The notes under the pieces: generated by a model
Database searches by the model: none
What the model was told of the DNA's origin: nothing
Seen by the model: the letters and a program-made list of their open reading frames with translations, nothing else
NCBI GenBank assembly: GCA_015039365.1
Contig: WION01000006.1
Location: 124,001-188,000 of the forward strand
Length of the DNA stretch: 64,000 nucleotides
Direction of reading: 5' to 3'
DNA from: Amanita rubescens
Taxonomy: Eukaryota > Basidiomycota > Agaricomycetes > Agaricales > Amanitaceae
Program-made: the position numbers and the translations under genes
Shown: positions 28,601 through 47,085 of the stretch, piece after piece
Layout: every line of letters starts with the position of its first letter
Numbering within the stretch: the first letter of the stretch is position 1

Positions 28601-31600
28601 TTTTGGCGTCTTCTAACCGCCTATATCATAATCTTCACCTCCGCCTTCCTCGTCTAATATGTCTAACGACTTGACGATTCCTAGTTCCATTCCCGTTTTA
28701 AATGGAACTAATTATAAAGAATGGGAACGCATGATGCGTTTTCTATTACAAACAAAGGGACTATTTCAGTACCTTAAGGATGATTATGTTCATCCCCCGC
28801 GGATTTCTCCGCTACAACAATTCTTCATTGATACAGGTGTTCGTGCAGCCATAACTGCACAACCAGCGGTAGCAGCAGTTGCCGCACATGGTACACATCC
28901 AGCAACACCTGCAATCCCAGCCGTTGAGGGTGAACCGGCTATCACCCAACAAATGGTTGATGATGCAAAGGCCGTCAAAAAGGCTTTTGAAGATTGGGTT
29001 GTCGAGGATGATCGCATCCTTGGATCCATAAATATGAAATGTTCTGCTACCATACAGCAGATCAATTCAGAAGTAAATGCCGCCAGAGTTTTATGGCGGA
29101 ATTTAGCAAATCAATACGGTGTGACAACGTCTGCCGGTATCTATAATGACTTCCAATTAGCTGTTACTTGGAAGTTTCAAGATAAAAAGGATCCCACACA
29201 ATCCTTAAACGACCTCCTCGCTATAATAAACCGCTTATCATCTAGCGGAATCGTATTGCCTGAAAATGTCCAGGCAATGATTGTACTTTCAGCTGTCCCT
29301 CGTCATTGGGACAATTTTGCCGCTGTGGTTCTAGCCACTACAGAACCATCGGATCTCACGATCCAAGGGATACTTCCCTTAATTCAGAATGAGTGGCGCC
29401 GTAGGCACCCTGAATCTGCCGCGACGGCTAATACGTCGCAACAACAGCAGCAACCATGGCAACAAGTACGTGGTCGAGGACGAGGACGTGCTCGCGGACG
29501 TGGCCGCGGAGCAGGTCGTGGACGTGGGGGGAGGCCTTATTCTAGGCCTCCACAAGGCGCTCAGACACCGGCTCCTACTGCTCCTCCGGCAAATCAAAAT
29601 TGGCCGGGTAAAGTTGAGGGCCAAACACGTGGTCCTAACTGGGAGAGGAACCGAGAACGCCGAAAGGCAGATGCAGCCGAGAAGAAGGCTGCCAAAGCAG
29701 CAGAACATACTATGAGTTCTGCACATACCGTTGCCCGTATTGGGCCTTATGACATCACTGAGCCAGTTGCCGGCTCTAGCAAAGGCAAACAAAGAGAAAA
29801 GGATGAACTGGACTTTGAGTCCTATAAATCGAACCGAGGAATGGGGATATCGTCAGACGATATCGATTATAAAAATATGGATATAGATCAGGAAGCTGAA
29901 CTATATTATGACGATTATTACTATGAAGATAACGGCGAACAATGGTATGAAACCATTAAGAAATTGGAAATGGCTAACTTTCTCTTTATAGAGGCAGCGA
30001 TGAAAATGGTGTTTCCTAAATTGGGACACCATCGTCGTACTATAAATTCCTTCTTTGAACAATCTGTACTATATGATAGTATAAATTATAAAGAAAATTT
30101 AGACAAAACCTGCCTCGTAAGAGATAAGTCGTGTGACACTGCCATTTATAATGCAAATATGATTGAACGATCATATAATATTGGTAACATGTTTAAAAGA
30201 CCTTTTACATGTTTAGCGGTCAATAAAAGAAAATTTAAGGATAAAGTACATCCGACATGTCCCTGTCCGGAATGTGTAGAGAAACGTACTGGAGATACAC
30301 TATGGATGTGTGACTCCGGTGCATCCGATCACTTTACCTTTAGTAGGAAAGATTTCTCTGAATACAGAGAATTTCCTGCAAATGAAAACCACAGTGTCAA
30401 AACTGCTAATGGTTTAGATCGTCTTGAGGGACTTGGCACAGTTATTCTTGAACACAAGTTATCCACAGGGGAAACAACACTCGTAAAGCTCTTCCCTGTC
30501 CTCTATATGCCACGGGCAACTGCGCGCTTGATTTCAAACGGCAGATTGATTCGACAAGGATTAACTTGTAAACAAGATGAAAAGATGGTAGTCTTTTCCT
30601 TTACAGACTCGGGTAGAACGTGTATCGAAGGACATTATCTTATGCCCGAAGATACATTAGTTTACGCTCGAGGTAGGATTATAATAATGAATCCTACACT
30701 GGTTTCCGGTCCTGGCTTAGCCAACAGGAATTCTAAATTAATTCTTGGAAGACTGACAAAGAAACCAAACGCAGAGTCTATAGAAAAATTATTAGACTAC
30801 GAGACCTGGCATAAACGTTTTGGTCATCCATCTAACGAAGTCTTCTCGAAGATACCGTTAAATGTTAATGGATGGAAAGAAGTTACACTTCCAGAAGGAA
30901 AACTACGTTGTGAAGGTTGTCTAAAAGGCAAAATGAAGGCAAAACCTTATAAACTGTCTTCGAAGAGAGCTACTCGTCCCTTCGAGTTACTCCATATGGA
31001 TCTAATGACCGTACCGGCCATATCTTACCACAAATACAAATATATTGGTGTTATCGTTGACGATTTCACTTCGTATACGTGGATTGGTTTACTTAAAACC
31101 AAAGATCAAACTCTAGAATATTTTACCGGATGGTATAATGAGTTTGTAGATCCTAAACAACCTATTTCTCACCTCCGTTCTGATCGAGGGGGGGAATTTG
31201 TAAATAAAGCCTTTGAAGAATTCCTTAAATCCAAAGGAATTAAACATCAACAGACAGCTCCTTACACCCCACAACAAAATGGTCGCGTTGAACGCATGAA
31301 TCAGACCTTGTCAGACAAAGCTGAGGCTATGCGATTAGACGCAGGATGTCCGAAATCTTGGTGGGAGTTCTCATTCAGAACGGCTGTGCATGTGTACAAC
31401 CGCACTCCCCTAAAACGGACTAAATGGAAGACCCCTCTGGAAAATCTTCTTAATAAAAAACCAGACGTATCATACTTTCGAGTATTTGGATGTGAAGCCT
31501 GGGTATTTATCCCTGATCAACGGAGACCGGATAAGCTGTCCGAAAAATCCGTTTTATGTACTTTTGTAGGATATGAATCAGGAACCAAAGGCTATAGGTT

Positions 31601-34600
31601 CATGACGTCGACAAACACACTGGTCATATCCTCCCAGGCCACATTCTTTGAAAACAGGTTTCCGCGCAAAGGAAAGACTGCAGATATAATTACTGAAGAT
31701 CTTGGTCCGATCTGGGAGGCGATTCCTCAAGAGGAACCTAACCGCCCTCCACAAAATTTGGATTTAGATAACTTACTCCCAGAGAACCGTAGACGTTCTC
31801 CGAGCAGAAGACGCTCACCTGGTTTGGATCGAAGGGGTGCATCTCCTGATAGACAGCAATCAGACCCTTCTGATGATTCAAACGATGATGATGACGGTGA
31901 TGAATTTGCCGATCGTCAAAGAGATTTTTTGGATGATAATATCCGAAGACAAAGGGAAGAAAGAGAACAAGAAAGATGTGACAATTATCGTAGACTACGC
32001 GATGATTGGAAAAAGGGTCAAGGAATTGATAAACAGTCTCGTTTACGAGATCAATTCAAACGTCAAATGAGTGATATGTTTAAGAAACGTAAAACTCCTG
32101 AACCCTTTAGACGTACTCCCTCTCCACAAATAAAAGAGGAAACTCCTGTTCCTTCTAGGCCTATAACTCCGATACCATATGTATCTAGGCCACCTTCGCC
32201 TCGTAGTCCTATGGATGAAGATAATCCTTTCTCTTTGAATCAAAGAGATCGTGATGAAATAGAAAACCCATTTATGACGGATCGAGAATTTGATCAATTT
32301 GAACAACGTCAAAGAGATCGTTTTAGAGAATTTGCTCAGAGACCTAGACCTCCTCCACCGATCATATCTGATCCTGGTCCACCCTCTGTACAAATAGGTC
32401 CTCGCCGTTCTGGTCGTTTTCCAGTTCCAAGGGTACAAAAAGACAACGCGTATGGAGATAAAACTCCTGCACAGATAGAAGCGGAAATTCAGCAAAAGCG
32501 AGATGCTTTACGAGAGCAGTTAAAAGATAAAACTCCGAGTTCTTCGACTCAGGATCCACTGTCAGCAGACAGGAACCCTGATAGAATGAATGAATCTGCT
32601 TCTCTACTCAAAGAAATCTTCGCTTTAAAGTCTGAATTAAAATCTGCGGAACATGATCATTTAACTCGAATGATTAATGAATCTGGGAATGAATTCCTTC
32701 ATTTCCTTCTAAAAGCGGCTGTTCCCCTTGTAGATAACATTCCATATGACTATAGAGATATATCTAAAATGCGCTCCAGTAATCCTCAATTGTATAAACA
32801 ATGGAAGATTGCAATGGATGACGAATTTAAATCTCTTCAATCTAGAGATATTTGGGATTTAGTTGATCTTCCAAAAGGACGAAACCTAATCAGATGTCGT
32901 TGGGTTTTTGACTTAAAAACTGATGGACGCAAAAAAGCTCGCGTCGTAGCAAAAGGTTTTAGTCAACGTCCCGGATTAGATTACGACGAAACATTCTCGC
33001 CTGTAGCGAGATATGAAACAATCCGAATACTTCTGGCCACATCAGTGCTTGAAAATTGGGATATACAAGCCCTAGATGTAAAAACTGCCTTCTTATATGG
33101 CGATCTTGATGAAGATATTTACATGGCCCAGCCAGAAGGTTTCGTTGTAAAAGGACAAGAATCTAAAGTATATAGGCTGAGGAAAGCCATATATGGATTG
33201 AAACAGGCATCATATGCCTGGAATAAACAAGCTGATAAATCGTTGAAATCGTTGCATTTCGAGCGATGCTTGTCTGATTCTGGCGTTTATGTTCGTAAAG
33301 GCAAGAATACTATTACGATATGCATATTGTATGTCGACGATATACTCTTTATGGGAAATGACGATTCCACCATCGTATCCATTAAAAAGAAATTTATGGA
33401 GATGTGGGAATGTCGTGATCTTGGAAAGATCAAAGAGTATTTACGAATCCAAGTCAATTACAACCGTGATTTAGGATTCTTAGTCATAGATCAAGGTCCT
33501 TATGCCTTGAAGGTTGTTAAGCGATTTGGACTTGAAGATTGCAAGTCTGTACGCACACCGTTACCTGCTGGGTATGCTCCTATAAAAAATGAAGGAGAAT
33601 GCACACCACAGGAACGTTCTTATTATCAACAAATAATAGGATCCCTTCTATATCTTGCCTTAGGAACTAGGCCTGATATAATCTATGCAGTAATTTTGAT
33701 GTCCCAATTTTCATCAAACCCGTCCCAAGAACATATCCAGAAAGCCTTGTATATAGTCAAATACATTGCTCATACCTTAAACGTCAAAATCGTTTATAGC
33801 GCCAAAGGCAATAATAAATTTAGAGCCTACGCTGACGCTGACTGGGCCGCTGATCGTAATACACGACGATCTATAAACGGTTATGTCTTAATGTTAGCTG
33901 GTGGTGCGGTAGCTTGGACGAGTAGAAAACAAAAGACTGTAGCTTTGTCTTCGACTGAAGCAGAATACATATCCTTATCGGATGCTGCAAGACAAATTGC
34001 ATGGGTTGAAAATCTATTTTATGAAATAGGTACACCCATCAAAAGCATCTTACTTAGCGTAGATAATCAAGGCGCTATATTTTGGGCACAAAATCCTGCA
34101 CAAGAACATCGTTCCAAACATATCGATATTCGCTATCATTTCGTTCGCGAGTTGATCGAGACTAAAAAGGTAGTCCTCGAATATATACCAACAAACGAAC
34201 AGAATGCGGATCTCATGACTAAGAATTTATCCTTTGAAAAAGTCAAATTCTTTAGAGAACGATTGGGACTTTCCTTAGAAGAATATCCGACTTCTACAAA
34301 TGCATTAATCAAAAGACCAGATCGATTAGAAACTGAGGAAATCCGTGATCTGACGAAATTTATTCTTGATTGGCAAAATCTTGAATTAGATGGAATTGAT
34401 CGTCTATCACACAGGAAGTTGATGGAACTTCTTGATGGTCTTATTGATCAACAGGAATCGGATATAGATCCCTTCTATGATGAAAACATCATAGACTTTA
34501 AATAAAGGATATCTAAGCGAAGGGGTGTGTTAAATATAGAATTATATTTATAGAATGATTAACTACTGATTGACTATAATCAATGTTACTCATATCGCTC

Positions 34601-37600
34601 GCGTCATCCTTTATGTATGACATAGAGATGACATCATAATGACTTCATTATGATATCATGGTGACATCATGATAGACTCATGATCGCACCTTATGGTGTG
34701 CTTAGCACGCCATATCTTCCCATCTATACTATACGCTTACACATATGTAGACACATATTTGTTCTCTCTTAGTATATAAACCTGTCCTGTATCGTAGAAT
34801 AGGACAATCCATTCTCTTCCTCTTACTATCACTACTACGCCGAAGGGTAGTGCTAAGATCATATCGCAATAGGTAAGCTATTGCACCTGCTCATGCTGTG
34901 GACACGCTCTCGCGTAGACCTGTCTTCTTCGTCACTCACGTTCTTCCTGATGCTCTTTCGTCTTTACCCGTTACCAGACCTGCGTCCAATGCCGACGGGA
35001 GGTTACTATCGAGTGCTAAGGTTAGGCCTTTCGACTTTCCACATAGGGGTCCGTCTCCAGGGTTCACCGAATACCCTATTGACATCTCGCGATTCCTCGT
35101 TTGAGGCGTCACCCATGATCTTGCCTAGATGCGTCCTCTCCCGATTCCTCGTTGTTTCTATCTTTTTCTCTCCCTGTTCGTATCGGATCTTGTTGCTACA
35201 GGTATCAGTCACTTTAAACTGGTGTGGGTCCTTGCGACGAATTCGCTTCTTCGCGTGCGCTCTTCCAGCGTTGCCAGTTACCTTCGAGTTTCCGTCGATA
35301 TTCTTCGTCGAAGGCCTTGTCATCCCACCCATAAAGGCGCGGATGCGGAACATAGAGGGGGAGGAGATGTGGAGGTGTCGGTGTCGGCGGTCCAGAGGGG
35401 GTTGGAGACAGGGACGATGGAGGGAGGAGGGGAAGGGGTTTGTTTTGTCGTAACGCTGAAGGGTTTTTCTTATAGTATTCTTTTACTGCCTTCTTCGCGT
35501 TTTCCATGTGTTCCTCGGGTTCCCAGGTATTTTCTTCTTCAGGTAACCCTTTCCATTTCACCAGGAAACGTTTCCCTTGCCTCGTTTTTCTTACCCCTTT
35601 CACCGCTTCTACTTCGTATTCTTCACGTCCATTAATAATTTCCGGTGGCGGCCGTGGTTCGTTTTCCTGCTGCGCCGGGAATTGCGGTTCATAAACTGGT
35701 TTAAGTTTCGACTCGTGGAAGACGTCATGTATTCCCCATGTCGGCGGTAATTCCAGTTTATACGCTGATTTCCCTACCTCGGAAATTACCTTAAAGGGTC
35801 CGTGGAACTTGGCATCGAGTTTCTTTGATGTTCTTGTTGTTTTAATTTTGGACGCATCTAGATATACCCGATCTCCTGGTTGATATCGTCGGGATGGTTT
35901 GACGTGTTTATCGTGTTGTCTTTTCATCCTTTCCGTGGCTTGTTCCAGGTTCGCTTTCACCGTTTTCCATGTCTCTTTGAATTTCTCAATATATTCCGCA
36001 GCCGAATGGTTCGTCGTTTCCGTTTTACCTTCCGTTCCTTTGAATGGATTTCTTCCTGTTGTGATCATGAAAGGGGAGAACCCTGTCGCCGAATGTCGTC
36101 GATCGTTATGGCAGAATTGAGCTATGGGAAGCCAATCTGTCCAATCGTCTTGTTTTTCGTTTACGTACATCCGCAGGTATTCTTCCAGTTCTTGATTTAC
36201 TCGTTCCGTTTGTCCGTCCGTTTGTGGATGGTACGCCGTTGAAGGGTTTGCTTCTATTCCTAATATTTGGTACAATCCTTTCATAAATCCGGATACGAAT
36301 TGCGTTCCTCGATCCGATATGACCTTTTTTGGTAGTCCTTGTTCTTTGAATATATGTTCCCGATAAAGGTTTGCTACTCCTTGCGATGTTATCGTTGTAT
36401 TGCATGGGATGAAGTAAGCCTTTTTTGAGAATTGATCGACAATTACCAAGATCATATCTTTTCCTTTTGACGGTACTAATGGTCCGATGAGGTCCACGCT
36501 AATTACTGCCCATGGTTCTGACGGGATTTCGTTTGGTTGTAATGGCGCCGCCCTTGGTTGTCTATCGGGCTTATTGATCTGGCATTGATGACATGCTTTG
36601 ATGTATGTTTCAATGTCTCGTTTCATGTTAGGCCACCAGAATCCTCTTGTCGTTAGTTCCAGGGTTTTTGCGACTCCTGGGTGTCCTGCCGTTTTTACGT
36701 CATGGTTCGAGCTAATTACCCTTTCTCAAATTTCTGGTTTTGCCGGTACATATATTCGTCCTTTCCATTCCCAGCATTGATCGAGAGTATCGTATTTGAA
36801 ATCCGGGTCTTTTTCTTTTATTCCCTTGGTTACTTGTTTATCGAAATATCGACGATGTGTGTTACGAATTTCTTGTCGAATACTTAGCCATTCGTAACTT
36901 TCGTCATCTATTCTGATTTCGACTTTTCCGAATATATCTTCTTTTAGGAGAATGATTCCTTCGTTATCGTTTTCTCCTTTCGGGTGTCCGGCTCTTCTAG
37001 ATAATATATCGGCTTTAGTATTCGTTTTCCCGGATCGATGTTTTATGACGAAGTTATACTCTTGTAGATCCATGATCCATCGGGCTTGTCTCCTGTTCAG
37101 GTTTTGTGGTTTTCGGAAATATGTAAGATTTTGATGATCTGTTAATACTTCCGTTACCGTTTCTGTTCCTTTTAGGTAGTGAGCCCAATCGTAGAATCCT
37201 TGCATTACCGCTAGCATTTCTTTGTCATACACTTCGTAATTTCTTTCTGCGTCGTTTAACGCTTTCGATATGAATGCTACGGGTTTCCAGATTCCATCGT
37301 CGTCGAGTTGAGAAAGTATCGCCGCGATTGCGAAGTCTGACGCGTCTGTTTCCATGCGGAAGGGTCTTCCTGGTTTAGGGATGATGAGGACCCTTTCGGA
37401 AGCGATTTCCCTTTTTAGTCCTTCGAACGCTTCTTGTTGTAATTCCGTCCATAACCATTCAATTTTTCCCGTAAGTTTCGTTAATGCTTTTGCTATTTTC
37501 GCAAAGCCTTTAATGAACCTTCGATAGAAGTTGACAAATCCGAGGAATTGTTGAAGTTCCCTTTTCGTTGTTGGCGTCGGCCATTCGGCTATTGCCTTCA

Positions 37601-40600
37601 CCTTATTAGGGTCCATTCTTATTCCTTTATTTGAAATGATTAATCCCAGGAATTCGATCTCTTCTTGTTCGAAGTAGCATTTCTCCGCTTTTAAGGAAAG
37701 TTGATGATGTCGTAATTTTTCGAGGATTCTCTTGACTTGTTCTTGATGTTCTTTTTTGTCTTTGGAGAATACTAGGATGTCATCCATATAGATTACGACC
37801 CATCCTTCGGCAATTTCTTCTCTAAAGATATCATTCATCATTGTTTGGAATGTTGCCGGTGAATTGGTTAATCCGAAGAACATTACCAGTGGTTCGAATA
37901 ATCCACGATTTGTTCGGAAAGCGGCTTTCCATTCGTCTCCTTCTTTGATCCTGATGTTATTGTATCCCCATCTCATGTCCATCTTTGAGAAGTATTTCGC
38001 TTCGGATAACTTGTCGATTAATTCCGAGATTAACGGTAATGGGTATCTGTTTTTGATAGTCATTTCATTTAACTTCCGATAATCTTGGACTGGTCGCAGT
38101 TTTCCGTCTTTCTTTTTTACGAAGAAGAACGGTGATGCCATGGGCGATTTACTTGGTTTGATTCTTCCCGTTTCTAGTTGTTCTTTCAAGAATTCGTCCA
38201 ATTGTTTTTGTTCTTCTGGGTTTAACGGGTATATTTTACAATCTACCATTTTTGCTCCTGGTGTTAATTCAATCGCGTGGTCCCATGCCCTTCTCGGCGG
38301 TAGTTGATCGAATGTTTGTTTTTCGAATACTTCTTTGTAGTCGCGATAGACTTCTGGCACTATTTCTTTCCATGTCCTTTCGATTTGGTTGGCTCCTGCA
38401 ATATCAGTTGCAAAGTTTGATTTTGCTCGTACTTTTATCCAAGGGAGATCAACGTGTCGTATGAATTCGGGTCGATCAATATCAATGGCCAGTATTTTAT
38501 CTTCTGCTGGATCGTATTGTTCGATTTCATCTTCTGGTTCTTTGACCCACGATTCTTCGTAACATTCTCCTGGACATTTCGAGAATTTTATTTGGGCTTT
38601 TCTCCATTCGATTTCTGGGTTATGGTGTTCTAACCAATCATGTCCGAGGAATACGTCTTTTTTCCCAATATTTACCACCGCCAGTTCTAGTGTTTCTTCA
38701 TGGTCGTAAATTCTCATTTTAATTGTGACCATGTCCGTTATCTTTCCTCCGACGTTTAACGTTCCGTCGGCGTTAGTAGCGGTTATCGCTCGTGGTAGTT
38801 TGGTTGTGTTGATTTTATGTTCCTCGACAAATTGTTTGGATATTGCCGACATCATACATCCACTGTCGATTAACGCTATGGTGTCGAAGCTTTCTTCTGT
38901 ATCCAGGGTGGTGAGTATGATTCGTATGTCCATTTCTCTGTGTCCTGATGCTCCGATCCATTGCGGTTCCCTTAGTTTTCGCAAATACCAAATTGCTTCC
39001 TCTTCTTCGAGATCATTGATTTTGTTGATTAATTCTTCATCAATTTGTTCTCTGAAGGTTTGGTGTGCGAATGTTCGTAATTGCGTAACTCCTTGTTCCG
39101 GGTATTTCCATAATTGTCTTATCATCCATGCGGATGACGAATTTCTGAGTTTGTTTGTTTTGTCCCTTATCGATGTGTTTCGAATCTTTCCTTCCTTTTG
39201 TTTCACCTCGTATATTATTGATTCAAGGGATACATATTCGGAAGGTACTAGAGATTCATAAATACATCGATCGGAGATCAACGAAGAGGGACTATCCTTC
39301 ATTGATCTCTCACAAAACCCAATTTCTCTTTCATTTCCGTTTTTTCTTCTTCAGTCATCGATCCGAAGTAATCTCCTACGGCTTGCCTTCTAATCACGGT
39401 TTTTCCCTTGCAATATTTTGCGATGTGACCGATTTTTCCACAGTTATAACATTTAGGTGGAGGACGAGTTGTCGGGGTCTGGTCGACATCCATCGCGTTT
39501 TCGTCTTTGACTTTGACCGTGATTGTTTCTTTTTTTGGCTGACTCGGTCCGGCTTGCGCATTTGTCCTTGTGACTTTGAATTCTCTTTTACCATAGTACC
39601 TTTCGGCTTCCCGGAAGTGTTTTTCTATTTCCGTTGCTCTTGTGTACCAGGCTTGGAGTTGTCCTGGTGCGCTGCCGTCTCCGGGGTTTCCTAATTCGAT
39701 TACTCTCCTTCCTACTCCGATCTTAACACCTTTCTTGAATTGATCGATCAAGGCGATTTCGTCGAATCCTGAGAGTTGGGCCCATCCTTTGAATTCGATA
39801 ATATATTCTTCGATGGTTTTATCTCCTTGTTTCAACTCTCTAAGTTTCTTTATAGCCTCGTCGCGTGTTTCTGTTGTTAGGAAGTATTGTCTCGCTTCTT
39901 CTGCGAACGCGTTCCAGTTTACGAAAGGCGGTTTGTGAATGAATTCGTATCTTTCCCATTCCGGATGATCACCTGTTGCCGCTTCTGCCGGTACTTCCGT
40001 GCATGCTTGATAATGCGTACAGGTTCGTCCGGGATAGGTTGTCGCAAATCGAATTCTTTCTTCATCGTTTTGTGCAATTTCTCCTATTTTTCCATTTGCC
40101 CAATTCGATGCTCGGTTTCCTTTTCCTTTCCTGATTCGTTGGATTGCGTACGTAACCCGTGCGATATCTTCCGTTAACCTTACTTGGACGAAATAGTAGT
40201 TCATCCTCCTAAGCCATGAATCGATTTCCGCTGGTTCGCCTTCGTAGTGTTCCGGAGGTTCAATTTTTAATTCCGGTGGTCGTGTCCTTAGTCTGTCGGC
40301 GTCTCTGTCGGCTCTTTCCGCGGCTCTTTGTTCTCGTCCGAGTTGTCTTTCAAACTCTTGTTGTTGTTGTGCCAGTTGTCGTTGGAAGTTTTCATTTTGT
40401 ACCCGTAATTGTTCTATTACATTCGCAATGTTTGCTCCCATTGCTGCGGCAGCAATGGTTGCATCTTCAGTTTCCGTTGCGATTGTTTCCATGGTGGGTA
40501 CAGCCGTTGCCGAGATTGCTCCTGTGATATCTCCGTGTTCGTTGAAGGTTGGTTGGACAACCTGTATTCTATTTCGTCTCATGAGGTAAGTGAAACCTGC

Positions 40601-43600
40601 CAGCGCGATAGCGGTGAGCGCAGCTGGTAGGGCCATGGTTTAGCGGGTGTTTGGGGTTGTGTAGAGTTGTTGGTGAACTTGTGCAATATAGACTGCAACA
40701 AGGTAAAGGTATGTGAGGTGAGCTATCAGGGCGATAGCAAGGAAAATTCGTATGAATGCCGTGGTGAGTGGTGTGAAGAAAAGCAACAAGCTTATGTCAC
40801 GAGCCTTAGACAGGCTACACAACACAAGACTCAATCACTCGTAGATACTACCGACAATGTCAGGTAGCGAGGGCGAATACAAGAACCGTCTAGGTTCAGG
40901 GCAAAGCTTAAGAAGGGAGGAGCTCCGAGCTGTCCAAGGAAAGACTAGCTTGTTGCTTAGCGTATCTACTACAATATACACTACTTATATACTACATTGG
41001 GCGTAGGGTATGAGTCATACTATGTCATAGGGCGTAGGGTACATGAGTCAGTACATGCGCGAAGCATGCGGCGTATCAAGGAGTAAAACAGGGGCTTGAC
41101 AGCACTAATCTACAATATATTTCCTTTATAGTTCCTTTGGTGGTTATATTCACCAAGTTTGATGGTCAAATAGCCAGTCAATTTGTCAACTTGACTGATG
41201 CAAATGATGAAGATAAGTGGGAGAAAGCTAGGGAAATTGCTGAAATCACTTTTCAGGAAGTTTATCTTCCTAAAGTTTTGAATGCCAGATATCCTCCAAA
41301 GGCATATGTGCAATTGGAAGGTGAGAACAATGAGAATTTCTTTCTGAAAAGATGAGTAATGTTGTTCCATAGACATGGATTTACCAGAGAATAATTGTCC
41401 TGAATTAACTCAGCAAACTGCTGATGCAATAGATGATGACAGCATGTATCAGCTGTTTGTTTCAACACAGATGAATAATCTTGACCTTTGTGTTAAATCT
41501 GCACTTCAGTGGGGGTCACATTCAAAATCTCACTTACCATGTAACATTGACATTGTTCAGACATGTTCTAAAACATGCACATTGGTCATGGGATGATGTC
41601 ACCTTCATAGTATTTTCAAAATTTCCACATTTCTGGGTATGCATTTTGTCAAGCTGTGCATCAGCATAGGAAAAATTAATTGGAAATAGGTGGACAGGGC
41701 AGTAGGTGGCCTTCATATGGAATGACAAATACTTGCAAAATGTTCATCAGGAGGTAACTAACACTCCAATTCCTTCAAATGGAAACAAGATTAGTCATGC
41801 TTCAGATGGCTGATAAACAACTGAGTGAAACACAGGTTAGTTGTCACCAAATTCTTGGTGGCAGGATCTAATAATATTGGTAACAGTGGGTAAGTGACAT
41901 TGAACTAGCATAGGTCTAATATCTTGTCTCATGACAACAGTTTGCAAGTAATCCCCTTTGTGATCAGCAGCCTTCCCTCATAATCCACAGAAAGTAATTG
42001 ACATCACTCAATTTGATTATGGTACATTATCTCATGGTACATGCACTAACCAACAGCAAGTGAGTTCAAAATCTATCATTGTAGCAGACTTGTCAATCCC
42101 ATTTCTCATGGACAGGGAGTGAGTAATACAACATTGTCTCACGCCACATCTGACCTGTTTAAAGAAAGTAAGTAACATACCATAAGTTGATGTTTGTGCA
42201 GTTTACCAGACATAACTTGATGAACAACAGAAAGTTTGTGACACACTTTTATCTGAAAGACAGTCTCCACAAATGTCATCTGCTCAAAATCAGGATGTAA
42301 GTGACATTTCCTTTCTGTCTGCTTATAAACATCACATCTTGTTCAAAAACAATAGACAGTAAATATTTCTCCCTTCCAAGAACTCTTTAGATGCTATTGC
42401 AAAACAAACAGGATGTATGTGATAGTGCATCTTGTAAAATGTGATCTTATGAAATACTACTGCAAAAGAGAGTCAGTGACCTTGCTTCCTTTTTCCAGAT
42501 TCATTATATTAATACCATTTTAAAAGGAAGTGAGTACTGCTGGCCACTCCGCTGCAAGGCAATTTCTGGGATGCATTTTGAATATCCTACAGATTGTGAG
42601 CAATATTAAAAAATATGAAAACCAGTGAAGTCACACCTTTTCCTATAAATATAGGAGGTTAGCAGGATGTCACACTTTTGAGTGATTAAGATGTCCTCAG
42701 TATCAATTTTTTTCCTGTGACCAATAGTATGTAAGTATCATTACAAGATTTTCTGAATTCTATGAATTTTGACCCTATGACTGACAGGATGTGAGCATGA
42801 CATTGCACATTATTGTGAAAGGCATTTCTTATGACCAACAGGGAGTGAGTGACATTGCTCTTGCTGGTGAAAGACAGTCTCATCACATCTTGTCCTACAT
42901 ATCATATATGTAATGATGACCAACAGGGAGTGAGTGACATTGCATGTTGTTGTGAAAGGCAGTTTTGTCACATCTTTTCCTACAACCCACAGTTTGTTAG
43001 TGACATTGCTCATTTTTATAAAAGACAATCTCATTGCATCTTTTCCTATGACCAACAGCTTGTCAGTGACATTGCTCATTTTTTGAAAGGGAGTCTCATC
43101 ACAGCTTTTCCTATGACAGGGAGTGAGTGACATTCAAGCACATCATTGTGAGGGGTGTGGCACAGTCATCATGTCTTTCCCCATACCAACAGCTTGTGAG
43201 TGACATTGCACATTTTTGTAAAAGGTAGTCTCATCACATCTCACATCTTTTCAGCGTGTGAGTGACATTGCATGTTTGTGCCATGAACTTAGGGAGTCTC
43301 ATCACATCTTTTCCCATGACCAACAGCGAGTGAGTGAGATTGCACATTTTGGTGAAAGACAATGCAATCATATATTTTGCTATGAACAACAGTTTGTGAG
43401 TGATATTGCACATTTTGGTGAAAGGCAATCTTGTCATATCATTTCCTACAATAGGGAGTAAGTCACATTGCACATTCTTGTGAAAGGGAGTCTCATGCCA
43501 ATATCTTTTCCCATGACCAACAGGTTGTGAGTGAATTGCACACTTTGTCAAAGGGAGTCTCATGACATCTTTCATATGATCAACAGCAGGTGATAGTATT

Positions 43601-46600
43601 GCAAATTGTCATGAGAGGCAGTCTCCTCACATTCTTTCCCTTGACCAACAGCGAGTGAGTGACATTGCACAATTTTGTGAAAGGCAGTCAAGTGTCATTG
43701 CATCTTTTCCTATGACTAACAGCTAGTGAGTGATATTGTACATATTTGTAAAATGGACTCTGAGTCTCATCACATCATCTCCCATGTCTAACAGCTTGTG
43801 AGTGATGTTGTGGCACAAATAAGTTTCTGATATAGTATTCCTATGGCCAACAGCGAGTGAGTGACATTGTATATTTTTATGAAAGGTAGTCCAATCACCA
43901 CTTCTTTTCCTATGACCTTGAACAGTTTGTGAGTGACATTGCACTTTTTTGTGAAAGGCAATCTCATCACATATTTTCCTATGACCAACTTCAGGGAGTA
44001 AGTGATTAGCCATCCTGAAAGTTATCCCATCATTTCCTATGACTGGCTTGAACAGCTTGTGAGTGATGTTGCACATTTTTATGAAAGGGAGTGGCATATC
44101 TTTTCCTATGACTAACAGCGAGTGAGCAATATAATTGCATGTTTGTCATGACAAGGCAATCTCATCACATCTTTTCCTATGACCAATAGCTTGTGAGTGA
44201 TATTGCACATTTTGTGAATGGTAATCTCATATTCACATCTTTTCCTATTAACAACAGGGAGTGAGTTGCATTGCAAATTTTTGTGAAATTGTGTCTCACC
44301 ACTTCTTTTCCTATGATCAACAGCTTGTGAGAGTGACATTTCACATTTTTGCAAACAGCAGTCTCATCACCTAGTTTTCCCATTATGAACAGGGAGTGAG
44401 TACATTTATTTGAAATGCAGTTGGCACATCACATTTTTTCCTATTATGACCTACAGCAAGTGAGTACTGCATATAATTGTGAAAGGCCTTGTCATCACAT
44501 TTTCAATTTACTATGACCAACCATAGGGAGTGAGTGACCAACATTGACACATTTTTGTGAAACACAGTCTTGATCACTTCTTTTCCCATTATGAACAGGG
44601 AGTGAGTGACATTCCACATTTTTTGAAATGCAGTCTCATTACATCTTTTCTTATGACCAACAGGGAGTGAGTGATATTGGACATTTTCTTGAAAAAGAGT
44701 CTCACCACATCTTTTCCTATGACCAACAGCGAGTGAGTCACATTGCATATCTTTGGGAAACAGTCTCTCAGAGTCACATCTCTTCCTATGACCAATAGCG
44801 AGTGAGTCACATCATGGCACATTTTGTGAAAAATAGTAGGCTCACTTTTTCTATGACCAACAGGGAGTGAGTGACCATTAGTACTATTGCATATTTTTAT
44901 GAAATGCAGTCTCATCACATCTTTTCCTATGGCCAACAGGAAGTGAGTGACATTGCACATTTTTGTGAAAGGTGGCCTCTGACATCACATCGTTTCAACA
45001 ACTCAAAGCTTGTGAGCAACAATGCACATATTTTTGCAACAAACAATCTCATCCCATCTTTTCCTGTGACCAACAGGGAGTGAGTCACATTGAACACTTT
45101 TGTGATGGGCAGTCACCTGAACATATTTCCCTGTGACCAATAGCGAGTGAGTTCAGACATTAGTACTCATTTTGTGAAAGATAATCTCATCACATCTTTT
45201 CATATGACCTATAGCGAGTGAGTGATATTGCTCATTTTTTTGAAAGGGTGTCTCATCACTTGTTGTCCTATGACCAACTTCAGCTTGTGAGTCACATTGA
45301 ACATTCTTGTGAAAGGCAGTCCCATCATCACATCTTTTCCTATCATTAACTTTAGCTTGTGAGCAACATTCCATGTTTTTGTGAAAAGTAGTCATCAAAC
45401 CTTTTCACTATGATCAACAGGAAGTGAGTGGTATTGCACATTTTTGTGAAAGGCTGTCTCATAATATCTTTTCCTATGACCAATAGGAAGTGAGTGACTT
45501 TGCACATTTTTGTGAAAAACAGTCTCATTACTCTCATCACATCTTTCCTATTACATGACCAACAGGAAGTGAGTGACATGAGTCAAGTGTGTTATTGTGA
45601 AAGGGTGTCTCATCACATCTTTTCCTTGACCAACAGGGAGTGAGTTACATTGGCATGAAGTCCTGAGAGTTTCATCACATCTTTCCTTATGACAAACCAG
45701 GGAGTGAGTCATACTATTGCATGTTCATGTGTGAAAGGCAGTCACATCACATCTTTTCCCTATGACCAACAGCAAGTGAGTGACATTGGAATTGTATATT
45801 GTTGTGAAAGGCTGTCACTGACACCCCTTCCCATGACCAACAGCTTGTGAGTGACATGATTGCACATTTTTGTGAAACTTGAAGGCAACTATCTTATCAT
45901 ATCTTTTCCCTATGACCAACAGGAAGTCAGTGACATTTTTGTGAAAGGCAATCTCATCAAACATTTCCTATGACCAACAGGAAGTGAGTGGCATTGCACA
46001 CTTTTGTTTTCAGAATGGGAGTCTCATCACATCTTTTCCTATGACTGACAGAGAGTAAGTGACAGACATTACACATTTCACTCTCATCATGTCTTTACTC
46101 ATGTATGATCACTAGCTTGTGGGTGACATTGCATATTTTCATGAAAGGCAGTCTCATCACATCTTTTCCTACTATGACAAACAGGAAGTGAGTGACATTG
46201 CACATTTCTGTGAAAGGGCCCAATCTCATCACATCTCTTCCTATGACCAACAGCTTGCAAGTGGCATTGCACATTTTTGTGAAAGGGAATCTCATCACAT
46301 CTTTTGCTATTACCAACAGCTTGTGTGTGGCCATATTACTCATTGCTGACTTACCTCATTCACAAATGTTTGATATATGAATCATGACATTCTATGTATA
46401 TCAGAAAGTGAGCATGTGCCAGATCCTTTCTATGTCTTACTTTCACATTATTATCATCACAGATTGTAGGATTTCATTTCTGCTCACTCAAGCCCACCTC
46501 ATGTGACCATTCTTCTCACCCATCACTTTCCTTGATTTCCAGGTCAGTCACATACTGGTTCATGAGGTATTGATCTTCATATCAGTTTGAAATTCTAGCG

Positions 46601-47085
46601 GGTAGGTCTGACAATACATTAGATGTTTCACTCTTATCTCATATTGAACTGCATAGCATGAACTTTTTGCTATATTTGGAGACAAACAAAGGAACTTTGC
46701 AGTCAGGGTATTTTGTTCTTTTTTTGGGTAGTCACTACACAACTGATGTAATTACAACAAGCCTATTGATTGCCAAGTCTTAGTTTGTGAATTATCCCTT
46801 TTCATTTACTGTATTTATGCTTAAACTTTCAAGCAATTATTATTGTAGCCAAGCTATCATTTTGGATCAATAAACCATTTCTTGCATCAGTCACAGAAGC
46901 CTTAGATCAATACAAGCAAAAAGGCTATATTCAGAAGCTGAAGACTGACATTACTCCTTGCCTTCTGCACTCTGGTCATCAAGATTTTGTCTCATTACTT
47001 TATAGGCAAGCAACTCACATTGATGGTATGTACTTTGCCTAGTGACTCATGCACTGCTACTTATAAACAATTTATGGCAGGATAA
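25620..47085 (+). CDS. P-loop GTPase (G-domain) gene with retroelement-filled intron and single-codon exon array
   Basis: Exon 1 starts at ATG 25620 (MTDTASGPSTLS). Following exons encode the G domain: G1 P-loop GRANAGKTT (about residues 36-44), RGLHDIEHQITYPW, G3 DSQGFESGSTDE, and LHAIWYCIPMD. The exon ending at 26313 (GTGR) joins across a 14.8-kb intron to 41132 (VPLVVIFTKFDG), where TKFD is the G4 nucleotide-specificity motif. Then come CPELTQQTADAID, LFVSTQMNNLDLC and a Trp-rich segment ending FSKFPHFW at 41636, phase 0. After that the reading continues as tiny exons: VDRA (41690-41701), one codon at 41751, MADKQLSETQ (41806-41835), 70 more one-codon exons to 46465, then VSHILVHE (46543-46566). 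The last recognised exon (46849 on) encodes FWINKPFLASVTEALDQYKQ and ends at TAA 47083-47085. The join between 46567 and 46848 is unresolved. Soluble fungal GTPases of this type have unknown roles. This region is more AT-rich than its neighbours. Confidence 0.72.
26415..26721 (-). repeat. gypsy 3' LTR (in element orientation)
   Basis: Copy of 307 nt matching 40795-41101, TG...CA ends, flanked on the left by target duplication GCACT at 26410-26414. Confidence 0.95.
26802..27208 (+). repeat. copia 5' LTR
   Basis: 407 nt, matches 34528-34934. Contains a TATA box TATATAA at 27047-27053, which would place the transcript start in the following ~30 nt. Confidence 0.93.
27209..27220 (+). promoter_or_regulatory. 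copia primer binding site matching initiator tRNA-Met anticodon arm
   Basis: Directly after the LTR the sequence GGTTATGGGCCC is complementary to the anticodon stem-loop of eukaryotic initiator tRNA-Met (GGGCCCATAACC), not to a tRNA 3' end. Drosophila copia uses such a half-tRNA primer. The match covers 12 nt. Confidence 0.8.
28106..28657 (+). CDS. copia leader ORF with Pro-rich region, PPSY motif and hydrophobic C-terminus
   Basis: The frame is open from 28106 to TAA 28655-28657, about 183 codons, but has no ATG until 28409. A pyrimidine tract and TTTTAG end at 28105, so it may be the second exon of a spliced leader mRNA. Residues near the start include LPPSYDAPIPPFP, a WW-domain-type PPxY motif. 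The last 20 residues (RFFWRLLTAYIIIFTSAFLV) form a likely membrane anchor. The stop is one base before the polyprotein ATG (TAATATG). It is absent from textbook copia elements and its function is unknown. If unspliced, only the 82-aa part from 28409 would be made. Confidence 0.5.
   Translation, partial: ERKLDSETSTPLPVYEAEGESFPPTRRLPPSYDAPIPPFPLTLGNRTFIDTPAPISSSSHTRTIVRVVNPDTRFGVTTRGPVTVHNRRDHFLAARLRNGRTLQDEIIHRRRQAAIEEGVPPTLDLWIPPRGTSVAQHIANRRTRRNLERDNQEVENLENRRNFRFFWRLLTAYIIIFTSAFLV
28659..34505 (+). CDS. copia Gag-Pol polyprotein, 1948 aa
   Basis: One uninterrupted ORF. The Gag part (about 1-260) has the UBN2-type capsid fold signature around RVLWRNLANQYG. An Arg-Gly box lies at about 270-290 in place of a CCHC knuckle. 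Aspartic protease DSGASDHF is at about 551. Integrase has the zinc motif from WHKRFGH (about 716) with CEGCLKGK, then catalytic Asp in HMDLM (about 780), SDRGGEF (about 840) and Glu in QQNGRVERM (about 877). Reverse transcriptase carries YVDD at about 1557 and RNase H ADADW at about 1724 with SSTEAEYISL. A charged Ser/Arg/Asp-rich linker separates integrase and reverse transcriptase. All catalytic residues I can check are present. Confidence 0.95.
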   Translation: MSNDLTIPSSIPVLNGTNYKEWERMMRFLLQTKGLFQYLKDDYVHPPRISPLQQFFIDTGVRAAITAQPAVAAVAAHGTHPATPAIPAVEGEPAITQQMVDDAKAVKKAFEDWVVEDDRILGSINMKCSATIQQINSEVNAARVLWRNLANQYGVTTSAGIYNDFQLAVTWKFQDKKDPTQSLNDLLAIINRLSSSGIVLPENVQAMIVLSAVPRHWDNFAAVVLATTEPSDLTIQGILPLIQNEWRRRHPESAATANTSQQQQQPWQQVRGRGRGRARGRGRGAGRGRGGRPYSRPPQGAQTPAPTAPPANQNWPGKVEGQTRGPNWERNRERRKADAAEKKAAKAAEHTMSSAHTVARIGPYDITEPVAGSSKGKQREKDELDFESYKSNRGMGISSDDIDYKNMDIDQEAELYYDDYYYEDNGEQWYETIKKLEMANFLFIEAAMKMVFPKLGHHRRTINSFFEQSVLYDSINYKENLDKTCLVRDKSCDTAIYNANMIERSYNIGNMFKRPFTCLAVNKRKFKDKVHPTCPCPECVEKRTGDTLWMCDSGASDHFTFSRKDFSEYREFPANENHSVKTANGLDRLEGLGTVILEHKLSTGETTLVKLFPVLYMPRATARLISNGRLIRQGLTCKQDEKMVVFSFTDSGRTCIEGHYLMPEDTLVYARGRIIIMNPTLVSGPGLANRNSKLILGRLTKKPNAESIEKLLDYETWHKRFGHPSNEVFSKIPLNVNGWKEVTLPEGKLRCEGCLKGKMKAKPYKLSSKRATRPFELLHMDLMTVPAISYHKYKYIGVIVDDFTSYTWIGLLKTKDQTLEYFTGWYNEFVDPKQPISHLRSDRGGEFVNKAFEEFLKSKGIKHQQTAPYTPQQNGRVERMNQTLSDKAEAMRLDAGCPKSWWEFSFRTAVHVYNRTPLKRTKWKTPLENLLNKKPDVSYFRVFGCEAWVFIPDQRRPDKLSEKSVLCTFVGYESGTKGYRFMTSTNTLVISSQATFFENRFPRKGKTADIITEDLGPIWEAIPQEEPNRPPQNLDLDNLLPENRRRSPSRRRSPGLDRRGASPDRQQSDPSDDSNDDDDGDEFADRQRDFLDDNIRRQREEREQERCDNYRRLRDDWKKGQGIDKQSRLRDQFKRQMSDMFKKRKTPEPFRRTPSPQIKEETPVPSRPITPIPYVSRPPSPRSPMDEDNPFSLNQRDRDEIENPFMTDREFDQFEQRQRDRFREFAQRPRPPPPIISDPGPPSVQIGPRRSGRFPVPRVQKDNAYGDKTPAQIEAEIQQKRDALREQLKDKTPSSSTQDPLSADRNPDRMNESASLLKEIFALKSELKSAEHDHLTRMINESGNEFLHFLLKAAVPLVDNIPYDYRDISKMRSSNPQLYKQWKIAMDDEFKSLQSRDIWDLVDLPKGRNLIRCRWVFDLKTDGRKKARVVAKGFSQRPGLDYDETFSPVARYETIRILLATSVLENWDIQALDVKTAFLYGDLDEDIYMAQPEGFVVKGQESKVYRLRKAIYGLKQASYAWNKQADKSLKSLHFERCLSDSGVYVRKGKNTITICILYVDDILFMGNDDSTIVSIKKKFMEMWECRDLGKIKEYLRIQVNYNRDLGFLVIDQGPYALKVVKRFGLEDCKSVRTPLPAGYAPIKNEGECTPQERSYYQQIIGSLLYLALGTRPDIIYAVILMSQFSSNPSQEHIQKALYIVKYIAHTLNVKIVYSAKGNNKFRAYADADWAADRNTRRSINGYVLMLAGGAVAWTSRKQKTVALSSTEAEYISLSDAARQIAWVENLFYEIGTPIKSILLSVDNQGAIFWAQNPAQEHRSKHIDIRYHFVRELIETKKVVLEYIPTNEQNADLMTKNLSFEKVKFFRERLGLSLEEYPTSTNALIKRPDRLETEEIRDLTKFILDWQNLELDGIDRLSHRKLMELLDGLIDQQESDIDPFYDENIIDFK
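34519..34525 (+). promoter_or_regulatory. copia polypurine tract
   Basis: GAAGGGG just before the 3' LTR (2 nt away), the expected site for plus-strand priming. Confidence 0.6.
34528..34934 (+). repeat. copia 3' LTR
   Basis: 407 nt, matches 26802-27208; followed by target duplication CTCAC at 34935-34939. Confidence 0.93.
35214..39302 (-). pseudogene. gypsy Pol polyprotein, split by one in-frame TGA
   Basis: The frame runs from ATG 39300-39302 to a stop at 35214 with a single TGA at 36726-36728 (codon 859). Upstream of it: protease ALIDSGCMMSA (about 144), reverse transcriptase with VVIYMDDILVFSK (about 506), and RNase H TDASDFAIAAIL (about 652). Downstream in the same frame: integrase zinc motif HPGV...CHQCQINKP, catalytic core SVDLIGPLV, SDRGTQFVSGF and HPQTDGQTERVNQ, then a chromodomain (YEVEAVKGVR, FLVKWKGLPEEENTWEP). 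No other break was seen. A CGA-to-TGA change would explain it. Read-through is possible but nothing around the stop suggests it, so the element is probably disabled or dependent on others. Confidence 0.88.
39299..40636 (-). CDS. gypsy Gag, 445 aa, CCHC zinc knuckle
   Basis: ATG near 40634-40636, TGA at 39299-39301. The first ~25 residues contain a hydrophobic stretch (ALPAALTAIALAGFTYL). A Gln/Glu/Arg coiled coil (about 80-120) and capsid-like region follow, with the zinc knuckle CYNCGKIGHIAKYC at about 395-408. The Gag stop overlaps the Pol start as ATGA, so Pol would be reached by re-initiation or by a frameshift. Confidence 0.9.
   Translation of the reverse strand: MALPAALTAIALAGFTYLMRRNRIQVVQPTFNEHGDITGAISATAVPTMETIATETEDATIAAAAMGANIANVIEQLRVQNENFQRQLAQQQQEFERQLGREQRAAERADRDADRLRTRPPELKIEPPEHYEGEPAEIDSWLRRMNYYFVQVRLTEDIARVTYAIQRIRKGKGNRASNWANGKIGEIAQNDEERIRFATTYPGRTCTHYQACTEVPAEAATGDHPEWERYEFIHKPPFVNWNAFAEEARQYFLTTETRDEAIKKLRELKQGDKTIEEYIIEFKGWAQLSGFDEIALIDQFKKGVKIGVGRRVIELGNPGDGSAPGQLQAWYTRATEIEKHFREAERYYGKREFKVTRTNAQAGPSQPKKETITVKVKDENAMDVDQTPTTRPPPKCYNCGKIGHIAKYCKGKTVIRRQAVGDYFGSMTEEEKTEMKEKLGFVRDQ
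40781..40792 (-). promoter_or_regulatory. gypsy self-primer binding site
   Basis: Two nucleotides inside the 5' LTR (minus orientation) the sequence AGCTTGTTGCTT is perfectly complementary over 12 nt to AAGCAACAAGCT inside the LTR at 40947-40958. It does not resemble a tRNA 3' end (no TGG start). This is the arrangement used by Tf1-type self-priming elements, in which the 5' end of the RNA folds back as primer. Confidence 0.7.
40795..41101 (-). repeat. gypsy 5' LTR with promoter and self-primer
   Basis: 307 nt. On the minus strand a TATATAA box (40985-40991) precedes the self-complementary 12-mer at 40947-40958 by about 30 nt, so transcripts would begin at or beside the 12-mer. Followed on the right by GCACT at 41102-41106. 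Confidence 0.9.
41751..46465 (+). other. array of 71 candidate single-codon (3-nt) exons in the GTPase gene
   Basis: Between an AG acceptor and a GT (or GC) donor there are exactly 3 nt, 71 times. The only longer exon inside the run is 41806-41835 (30 nt). Exon starts include 41751, 41887, 41941, 41991, 42057, 42116, 42165, 42231, 42294, 42356, 42412, 42469, 42527, 42593, 42655, 42728, 42788, 42842, 42927, 42993, 43059 and continue at 55-82 nt spacing to 46463. Introns measure 46-82 nt. The phase entering the array is 0, so each exon is one codon. Tally: GGA 15, CTT 13, CGA 8, GAA 8, TTT 4, AAA 4, CAA 3, GAT 3, AGA, ATT and GAG 2 each, and TGG, ACA, TAT, GTT, CAG, CTA, CGT once. No stop codon occurs. 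Exons 2-17 would spell WFKQGKKDTDREIEYD; the rest is mainly Gly, Leu, Arg and Glu. Seen directly: spacing, signals, codons. Inferred: that they are spliced as exons. Confidence 0.7.
42791..46322 (+). repeat. tandem intron-like repeat, unit about 58-85 nt, roughly 50 copies
   Basis: Each unit reads GTGAGTGACATTGCACATTT, then a T/G/A-rich stretch with GAAAGGCAGTCTCATCACAT, a pyrimidine tract TCTTTTCCT and a branch/acceptor end ATGACCAACAG, then 3 variable nt. Units differ by substitutions and small indels, mostly in the middle, while the splice signals at both ends are kept. The array therefore consists of head-to-tail introns. To the left (41637-42790) the introns no longer share this sequence. 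Confidence 0.88.

Follow-up and report, generated by a model that had tools for sequence, protein, structure and literature searches.

In a GTPase gene of Amanita rubescens, the part that links the GTPase domain (..KFPHFW) to a short C-terminal domain is very probably encoded codon by codon, each codon forming an exon of its own. The gene is found in a stretch of 64,000 nucleotides (nt) of contig WION01000006.1, referred to here as the window, to which all coordinates apply unless a contig is named. Its plus strand contains 71 three-nt exons between 41751 and 46465, of which 70 form an unbroken run from TGG at 41887–41889 to ATT at 46463–46465 and one precedes a 30-nt exon (Table 1). The run emerged from a chain search that requires introns of 40–95 nt, an AG acceptor, a GT or GC donor and an exon of exactly 3 nt. 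Its introns measure 46–82 nt, the intron after the 30-nt exon occupying 41836–41886 (51 nt); all 70 end in AG, 68 start with GT and two with GC, and although these dinucleotides are themselves required by the search, the chain nonetheless spans the region without a gap. No stop codon occurs among the 70 triplets and the predicted array peptide is open throughout (E-MADKQLSETQ-WFKQGKKDTDREIEYDGGFLGLRRFGVQRLLRFGLRLGLGQGGGRRGELGRRLLEEEGGQLEERLELLKI), while for 52 of the 70 introns retention would bring a stop or a frameshift. From around 42,900 onwards the array is a degenerate tandem repeat with a period of about 66 bp, which holds most of the run. A preliminary description of this DNA had placed the array at 41751..46465, which is exact to the base, and its intron range, 3-nt spacing and in-frame 30-nt exon (41806–41835, MADKQLSETQ) were all reproduced. 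It had spoken of 71 consecutive exons, a number that holds for the three-nt exons but not for the unbroken run, and its codon-per-exon layout stands but omitted the tandem repeat.

When the exon length in the search was set to 0, 1, 2, 4, 5 or 6 nt, the longest chains in the array region contained 2, 1, 1, 1, 1 and 1 exons, respectively. Sixty first-order Markov resamplings of the whole array region gave chains of at most 3, and 200 resamplings of its first ~950 nt, in which the introns are not obvious copies of one another, gave at most 4 against the 15 observed there. The remaining plus strand and the entire minus strand of the window yield a maximum of 2. Across 52 repeat-like units the intron interior averages 83.8% identity to the consensus; AG is present in 52/52 and GT or GC in 52/52 (51 GT, 1 GC), and the chance of every AG surviving at such divergence is about 1e-8. 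An origin of the chain by chance or as a satellite artefact is ruled out by the exon-length and resampling controls taken with the complementary DNA (cDNA)-like proteins described below.

Several related proteins contain the array peptide in joined form. They have long open frames that cross many genomic exons and yet reside on short JGI contigs, and they are therefore presumably derived from spliced RNA. One of them is P0110 (285 residues, 1,099-nt contig), which reads ..SKFPHYW FRRQ H MSATEMKEIQ WFETAKNRAKSYSHEDHYFAFGYFRGA HG PE PT KGI F P K G HAQQR H E F G K E I F GPLLSLFGDVPNKFSIT PTACQVLI.., where the spaces mark genomic exon borders outside a run of 27 codons. A scan of contig C328 made without protein input found 27 consecutive single-codon exons spelling WFETAKNRAKSYSHEDHYFAFGYFRGA, which is present uninterrupted in P0110 (27/27); contig C23 yields the same 27-mer. 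In a spliced alignment of P0110 to C328, 98 of 100 residues are identical through 40 single-codon exons, alongside exons of 6, 9, 12, 15, 30 and 51 nt, and the genomic span from the starting GTPase exon of P0110 to the tail exon is ~4.0 kb. A 137-residue P0110 query scored 495 at C328, the best of 12 shuffled peptides scoring 73; at L043 P0110 scored 191 (best of 100 shuffles, 69) and at L048 it scored 114. Loci L041 and L042 carry FPVG[QR]HEFGKEI, and L044 carries CHRFGKEI. When a 156-residue query that included the array segment was searched against the genome, none of the matches listed started before residue 83 and the tail exon was found, which speaks against an intronless copy; a 39-residue query for a contiguous genomic copy of the array peptide gave nothing in a search that had no positive control.

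A second pairing is provided by P0027 (478 residues, 1,486-nt contig), which agrees with C1:30800-33600 (L055) in 32 of the 38 single-codon exons there. On C1 these exons form chains of 21 and 17 (WFESADNAAAKERQYYDDGVH and AGYGYYGGEKISEKERD), which are identical to the P0027 segments WFESADDAAGKEREYYDDGIH and GGYGYYGGKKISEKERD at 17/21 and 15/17 positions, and the alignment scored 164 against a best of 69 in 30 shuffles. The window's own subtype is represented by P0001 (386 residues, 1,446-nt contig), which reads ..LW VDRAVTNEQLSETK WFEKGKKESDREIEYDGG, then 38 variable residues and RI. Of the first 18 codons in the window array, 14 are identical in P0001, which then enters the variable stretch; its W-to-I segment comprises 58 residues and is followed by sequence matching the start of the next A. 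rubescens intron. P0010 (1,903-nt contig) has the same joined window-type start with another continuation. In these sequences, array codons are joined at spliced length in two paralogs and, in part, for the window subtype in related genes, and the window copy is likely to be spliced likewise. The earlier claim that single exons each contribute one codon to a peptide is thus supported for the gene family by P0110 and P0027, and partly for the window subtype by P0001. Of two region-limited protein searches for more spliced relatives, one found none, a result that is uninformative since P0001 shares several 5-mers with the query, and the other found only P0110 itself and P0121. The cDNA-like proteins P0025 and P0033 have nearly the same GTPase part and strongly differing array segments, apparently hypervariability visible at the RNA level.

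The arrangement belongs to a large family. In the 75.7-Mb A. rubescens assembly, the GTPase exon VPLVVIFTKFDG.. has at least 150 scored matches, probable allelic copies included, and the tail exon ..AKLSFW.. likewise at least 150; where both lists were paired (e.g. C328), the tail exon follows the GTPase exon at a distance of a few kb. The repeat has 443 matches, many per array, and all 20 of the 20 stretches read carry a 3-nt-exon chain. In 18 of these the chain starts with WF and a variant of WFEQGKKETDREIKY, the exceptions being L026, where the stretch begins at GKKETNREIEF, and L025, which is cut by the contig end and is without this part. Past the conserved start, loci differ in their codons unless they are probable allelic copies of each other. 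For L019 (contig C79), the gene model is an open GTPase frame (MADTTGAPSL..GRANAGKTT..HDSQGF..FTKFD..KFPHFW). A consensus of 28 aligned proteins contains GRANAGKTT, HDSxGF and FTKFD, in which most columns vary little or not at all; these give the P-loop G1, DxxG-like and TKxD motifs of an MMR_HSR1-like GTPase. Pfam Arf and MMR_HSR1 were detected in two of four proteins scanned, in both below the curated cut-off, and some listed relatives have precomputed PF01926 assignments; no solved structure resembled P0027 at E <= 0.01. A large GTPase family of this kind is also present among NCBI models of A. brunnescens, A. polypyramis and A. muscaria.

The triplets behave differently from the introns around them. 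In units 2–15, compared across 15 non-redundant loci (23 minus near-identical copies), the p-distance is 0.163 for introns against 0.088 for triplets, intron lengths vary in every unit, and most of the triplet changes are non-synonymous; the triplets here are conserved on a drifting background. Codon choice was compared between 1,084 array triplets from 26 loci, some of them close relatives, and 298 ordinary codons of one L019 model. The third base is A or T in 91.7% of array triplets versus 63.4% of the L019 codons, NAG makes up 2.4% versus 10.1% and GT-containing triplets 3.0% versus 9.7%, and the glycine codons GGA/GGT/GGC/GGG number 122/0/0/6 versus 1/6/4/3. Avoidance of accidental acceptors (NAG) and of accidental donors (GT or GC beside the true donor) would produce such a bias. 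Only 20 stops occur where position-wise base frequencies predict 71; 19 of them are TGA, which a single base change separates from the frequent CGA and GGA.

Against these observations must be set a number of points that weigh on the other side. The cDNA evidence consists of protein sequences, and for four of them the cDNA nature is deduced from contig sizes of 1.1–1.9 kb; no transcript of the window copy was found. The A. rubescens loci nearest to P0001 are 85–88% identical over GTPase stretches, and its own gene has thus not been seen; P0001 moreover ends by reading through the last intron. P0025, P0027, P0033 and P0054 gave no convincing array alignment with L049 or L050, apparently the wrong paralogs for these proteins, and no close locus was found for P0016. 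All 20 stops fall in 6 of the 26 loci (L022, i.e. G000:C749:1-9000, with stops in 10 of 52 triplets; L020, 3; L024, 1; L026, 2; L027, 3; L028, 1), which are probably dead copies; L032 and L048, chains outside the 26, have one TGA each. No simple choice of GT and AG sites brings the window gene into phase at its exit: judged by eye, a simple GT donor on the proposed VSHILVHE exon fails to supply the phase required by the C-terminal exon. About 14.7 kb of young long terminal repeat (LTR) elements lie in an intron of the window gene, which may have been silenced or truncated by their insertion. Finally, the A. rubescens model P0065 (F5887DRAFT_1280464) joins FPHYW to the tail with no array-like peptide, as would be expected if the model is wrong or if the gene or isoform lacks an array.

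Several of these points would be expected if the whole region were one large intron, a minisatellite or decayed array that the window mRNA skips by joining the donor at 41636 or 41701 to the tail exon. The tandem repetition of most of the run, the fresh LTR insertions and the stops in 6 of 26 arrays all favour such an intron, as do the annotated gene models. We read 28 NCBI models of the family (25 from A. rubescens or A. brunnescens, 3 from A. polypyramis): 24 stop 0–52 residues past FPH[FY]W or its equivalent, 3 stop before it and P0065 is the remaining one. Truncation is, however, just what is expected if annotation cannot place 3-nt exons, and gene models of this large Amanita family are probably truncated at the first single-codon exons. 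The large intron is also contradicted on other grounds: related genes are represented on cDNA-sized contigs by proteins that include the array peptide, and the window retains AG in 70/70 and GT or GC in 70/70 introns despite 16% divergence from the consensus, with stops in 0/70 triplets. We give this explanation only a very slight chance.

The single-codon exons might also be real but mostly skipped, giving a pool of in-frame variants of the sort proposed for schistosome micro-exon genes. All of them are one codon long and in phase 0, with near-identical donors and acceptors, and the reading frame is therefore preserved whichever units are left out. The unspliced last intron of P0001 is in keeping with skipping, and P0065 could be an extreme skip. 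Inclusion is nevertheless near-complete and ordered in two protein-locus pairs (all 40 exons for P0110) and a single sequence is available per gene, and we regard predominant skipping as unlikely.

Beyond its conserved start, the array combines uniform introns with diverse codons. Five arrays repeat a 62-nt intron that is nearly identical from unit to unit, with intron p-distances of 0.006 (L011), 0.014 (L015), 0.019 (L019), 0.025 (L014) and 0.072 (L023), the tandem part of the window reaching 0.264; the triplet p-distance is 0.57–0.65 in all six (window, 0.57). Within L019, 668 of 835 unit pairs with identical introns differ in their codon. Triplet and other bases were then compared in seven close locus pairs. 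Changes affect 36/117 triplet bases vs 24/3,127 others in L010/L013, 17/84 vs 8/2,447 in L010/L021, 4/159 vs 4/4,026 (plus two 2-nt indels) in L015/L016 and 5/141 vs 18/4,042 in L012/L015. At the codon level, 19/39 differ in L010/L013 (8 at all three bases, none synonymous), 2/53 in L015/L016 (CGA to ATC, CGA to GGA) and 3/47, one synonymous, in L012/L015, while in L010/L021 all 7 of 7 changed codons differ at two or three bases; such counts, especially those involving L010, may be inflated by register shifts, L015/L016 with its equal unit number being the cleanest pair. The other three pairs show no triplet change: 0/255 triplet bases vs 1/5,991 others in L017/L019 (with one 65-nt unit and a 7-nt indel), 0/183 vs 6/4,139 in L017/L018, and 0/210 vs 13/5,211 intron or flank bases between the window and L009 (with one extra 65-nt unit and small indels). 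These three count against the explanation preferred here. Arrays also differ by whole 65-nt units, as in the one inserted unit by which L017 and L019 are distinguished. L009 itself (G000:C614:1-8000) is a near-identical second copy of the window array, perhaps from the other nucleus of a dikaryon.

The unit of codon plus short intron is best read as a tandem-repeat cassette, in which an acceptor AG, one codon, a donor GT and an intron of ~62 nt are repeated. Replacement of whole codons without a trace in the intron is what unit copying, by gene conversion or unequal exchange, would leave if combined with selection for diverse codons. We tentatively propose, with somewhat less than even confidence, that the near-identical introns serve as recombination handles by which amino acids are inserted, deleted and swapped singly and in frame in a hypervariable segment of the GTPase family, possibly as a non-self recognition repertoire. 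Recombination and gene conversion inside identical introns would duplicate and rearrange codon cassettes, both in one array and from one array to another, and selection would keep the codons diverse and poor in stops and accidental splice sites. The peptide of this large GTPase family would in consequence change fast and might act in recognition or partner binding; a role of this kind in non-self or microbial interaction is a guess prompted by hypervariability and copy number. Given the 3-nt exon size, splicing would probably proceed by intron definition and sequentially.

Two other origins for this pattern were weighed. An ordinary coding stretch could have been invaded by copies of one intron at each codon boundary, a burst of introner type that would account for near-identical introns across loci and for triplets that resemble independent sequence. 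For insertion to hit every phase-0 boundary, however, a 3-nt ruler would be required; gain and loss involve whole 65-nt repeat units (L017/L019); closely related arrays share introns and not codons, as in L010/L013; and the codon choice of the triplets is unlike that of ordinary exons. Such a burst is very improbable. Somewhat less so, though still decidedly unlikely, is a dedicated process that alters the triplet in place of gene conversion and selection. It would fit the ratio of triplet to intron divergence (~8, 25, 40 and 62 in four close pairs) and the many changes at two or three bases of one codon, as in all seven of L010/L021. Yet the three pairs without triplet change tell against it too, the copying of units in identical-intron arrays looks alike with register shifts inflating the counts, and the limited set of triplets fits copying. 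We accordingly retain the cassette as our preferred reading of the unit.

In recursive splicing, where the exon is zero nt long, acceptor and donor almost abut as they do in the Amanita array and removal is probably stepwise; the array differs in retaining a codon at each step. A search for AG directly before GT gave zero-nt-exon chains of no more than 2 in the array region. The remaining comparisons draw on parts of the papers cited. Micro-exon genes are defined by micro-exons of <70 nt divisible by three, with at least seven exons, at least half of them micro-exons, and runs of at least four (PMC7653826). If its predicted structure is the gene structure, the window gene falls within this definition, having 71 3-nt exons, one 30-nt and one 12-nt exon against ~10 ordinary exons, and a run of 70. 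The micro-exon genes of schistosomes and tapeworms resemble it in their runs of tiny exons divisible by three, whose skipping would leave the frame intact, and in their fast evolution (PMC4350168). The Amanita run differs in consisting of dozens of exactly one-codon exons in a fungal GTPase family and in its tandem-repeat build, in which the introns are nearly identical and the codons hypervariable, the comparison being one of structure and not of homology. Plant and animal microexons (including the 1-nt exons of APC11 and VPS55) are also 1–15 nt long, spliced accurately and missed by annotation, but the portions of the source used here describe them as isolated or few per gene, with no long run (PMC8831610). 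In lipS of Dactylellina haptotyla, a fungal gene does contain 3-nt exons, but these number two, in a gene with over 10 introns, with no array in the part of the account considered (PMC5639578).

Concerted, near-identical repeats with a few hypervariable codons under positive selection are known from fungal NOD-like receptors with WD, ANK or TPR repeats (PMC4986451). There, in the sections drawn upon, the repeat is a translated domain, whereas in Amanita the homogenised part is an intron and the variable part one codon; and a Pfam scan of four Amanita proteins found no NACHT/NB-ARC or WD/ANK/TPR domain. Introner-like elements of fungi are likewise near-identical, multiplied introns (PMC4457414, in part), but the Amanita copies stand head to tail with one codon between them and 20/20 stretches read belong to one gene family. 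Runs of single-codon exons or tandem repeats of codon plus intron were undescribed in the open-access literature searched, subscription papers and bioRxiv lying mostly outside that coverage; within it, the preliminary view that the arrangement had not been described agrees with ours. Structurally the gene would be classed with micro-exon genes, yet to our knowledge its cassette layout and codon-only hypervariability set it apart as a different kind.

The array indicates that a spliceosome can dependably handle dozens of 3-nt exons in succession, near the limit of exon size, and it makes intron definition and stepwise removal directly testable. We know of no described counterpart for in-frame protein evolution by a repeat composed of a homogenised intron and one variable codon. 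Similar arrays may be overlooked in other genomes. If the cassette reading is true, this would be a codon-resolution diversity system in which splicing strips the scaffold before translation.

Table 1. Predicted features of the array gene and of the elements inserted in it, in window coordinates.
Feature	Position	Strand	Basis or remarks
N-terminal GTPase coding exons, same gene; G1 motif GRANAGKTT, HDSQGF	25708..26312	+	tblastn, 4 pieces
LTR retroelement in intron between GTPase exons	26415..41101		identical 307-bp ends, 26415-26721 and 40795-41101
Second LTR element, nested in the first	26802-34934		identical 407-bp ends, 26802-27208 and 34528-34934
GTPase exon VPLVVIFTKFDGQ..., TKFD motif	41132..41320	+	sequence; tblastn 84%; at least 150 scored places in the genome
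GTPase exon ...DMDLPENNCPELTQQTADAIDDDSMYQLFVSTQMNNLDLCVKSAL	41373..41508	+	sequence; tblastn
Exon HVLKHAHWSWDDVTFIVFSKFPHFW	41561..41636	+	sequence; tblastn
12-nt exon VDRA	41690..41701	+	sequence; P0001 reads LWVDRAVTNEQLSETK
Single-codon exon GAG (E)	41751..41753	+	sequence
30-nt exon MADKQLSETQ	41806..41835	+	sequence; similar in paralogs; present in P0001, P0010
15 single-codon exons WFKQGKKDTDREIEY, each flanked by introns of own sequence	41887..42730	+	chain search; codons kept in paralogs
55 more single-codon exons, hypervariable among loci, mostly ~66-bp tandem repeat, ending ..LLKI	42785..46465	+	
Last intron (GTAGGA..CAG) or read-through C-terminal extension IVGFHF..	46466..46542	+	
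Proposed exon VSHILVHE, limits and phase provisional	46543..46566	+	sequence only
C-terminal exon (A)IIIVAKLSFWINKPFLASVTEALDQYKQKGY..	46834..47030	+	start inferred from homology

To be added to the preliminary description is that the first GTPase exons of the gene sit upstream, beyond the ~14.7 kb of nested LTR retroelements. The L019 model matches the window by tblastn at 25708-25866, 25917-25964, 26015-26191 and 26238-26312 with 88.7, 56, 86 and 96% identity, respectively. The ends of each element are identical, and the insertions are therefore recent. Both inner LTRs contain an 11-bp tandem repeat, GATGACATCAT. At the near end of the array, GTG or GAG occupies the position of the GAG at 41751 in most of the paralogs compared.

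At the far end, the C-terminal exon is 58% identical to protein P0121 (tblastn, 46818-47024). P0001 continues with RIVRFHFRGSPNPTSC at the position of the last intron and is unspliced there, which suggests that some transcripts may read through beyond the last ATT. After the last single codon (ATT or AAT) the sequence is open for 14–70 codons, IVRFHFSSPTPTSCD.., in the 11 loci counted (window 46466-46600, L011, L012, L014–L016, L019, L023 and L025–L027), and this open stretch is perhaps a real C-terminus instead of an intron. The contig of L009 starts 14 bases ahead of the GTPase exon that follows the LTR element in the window.

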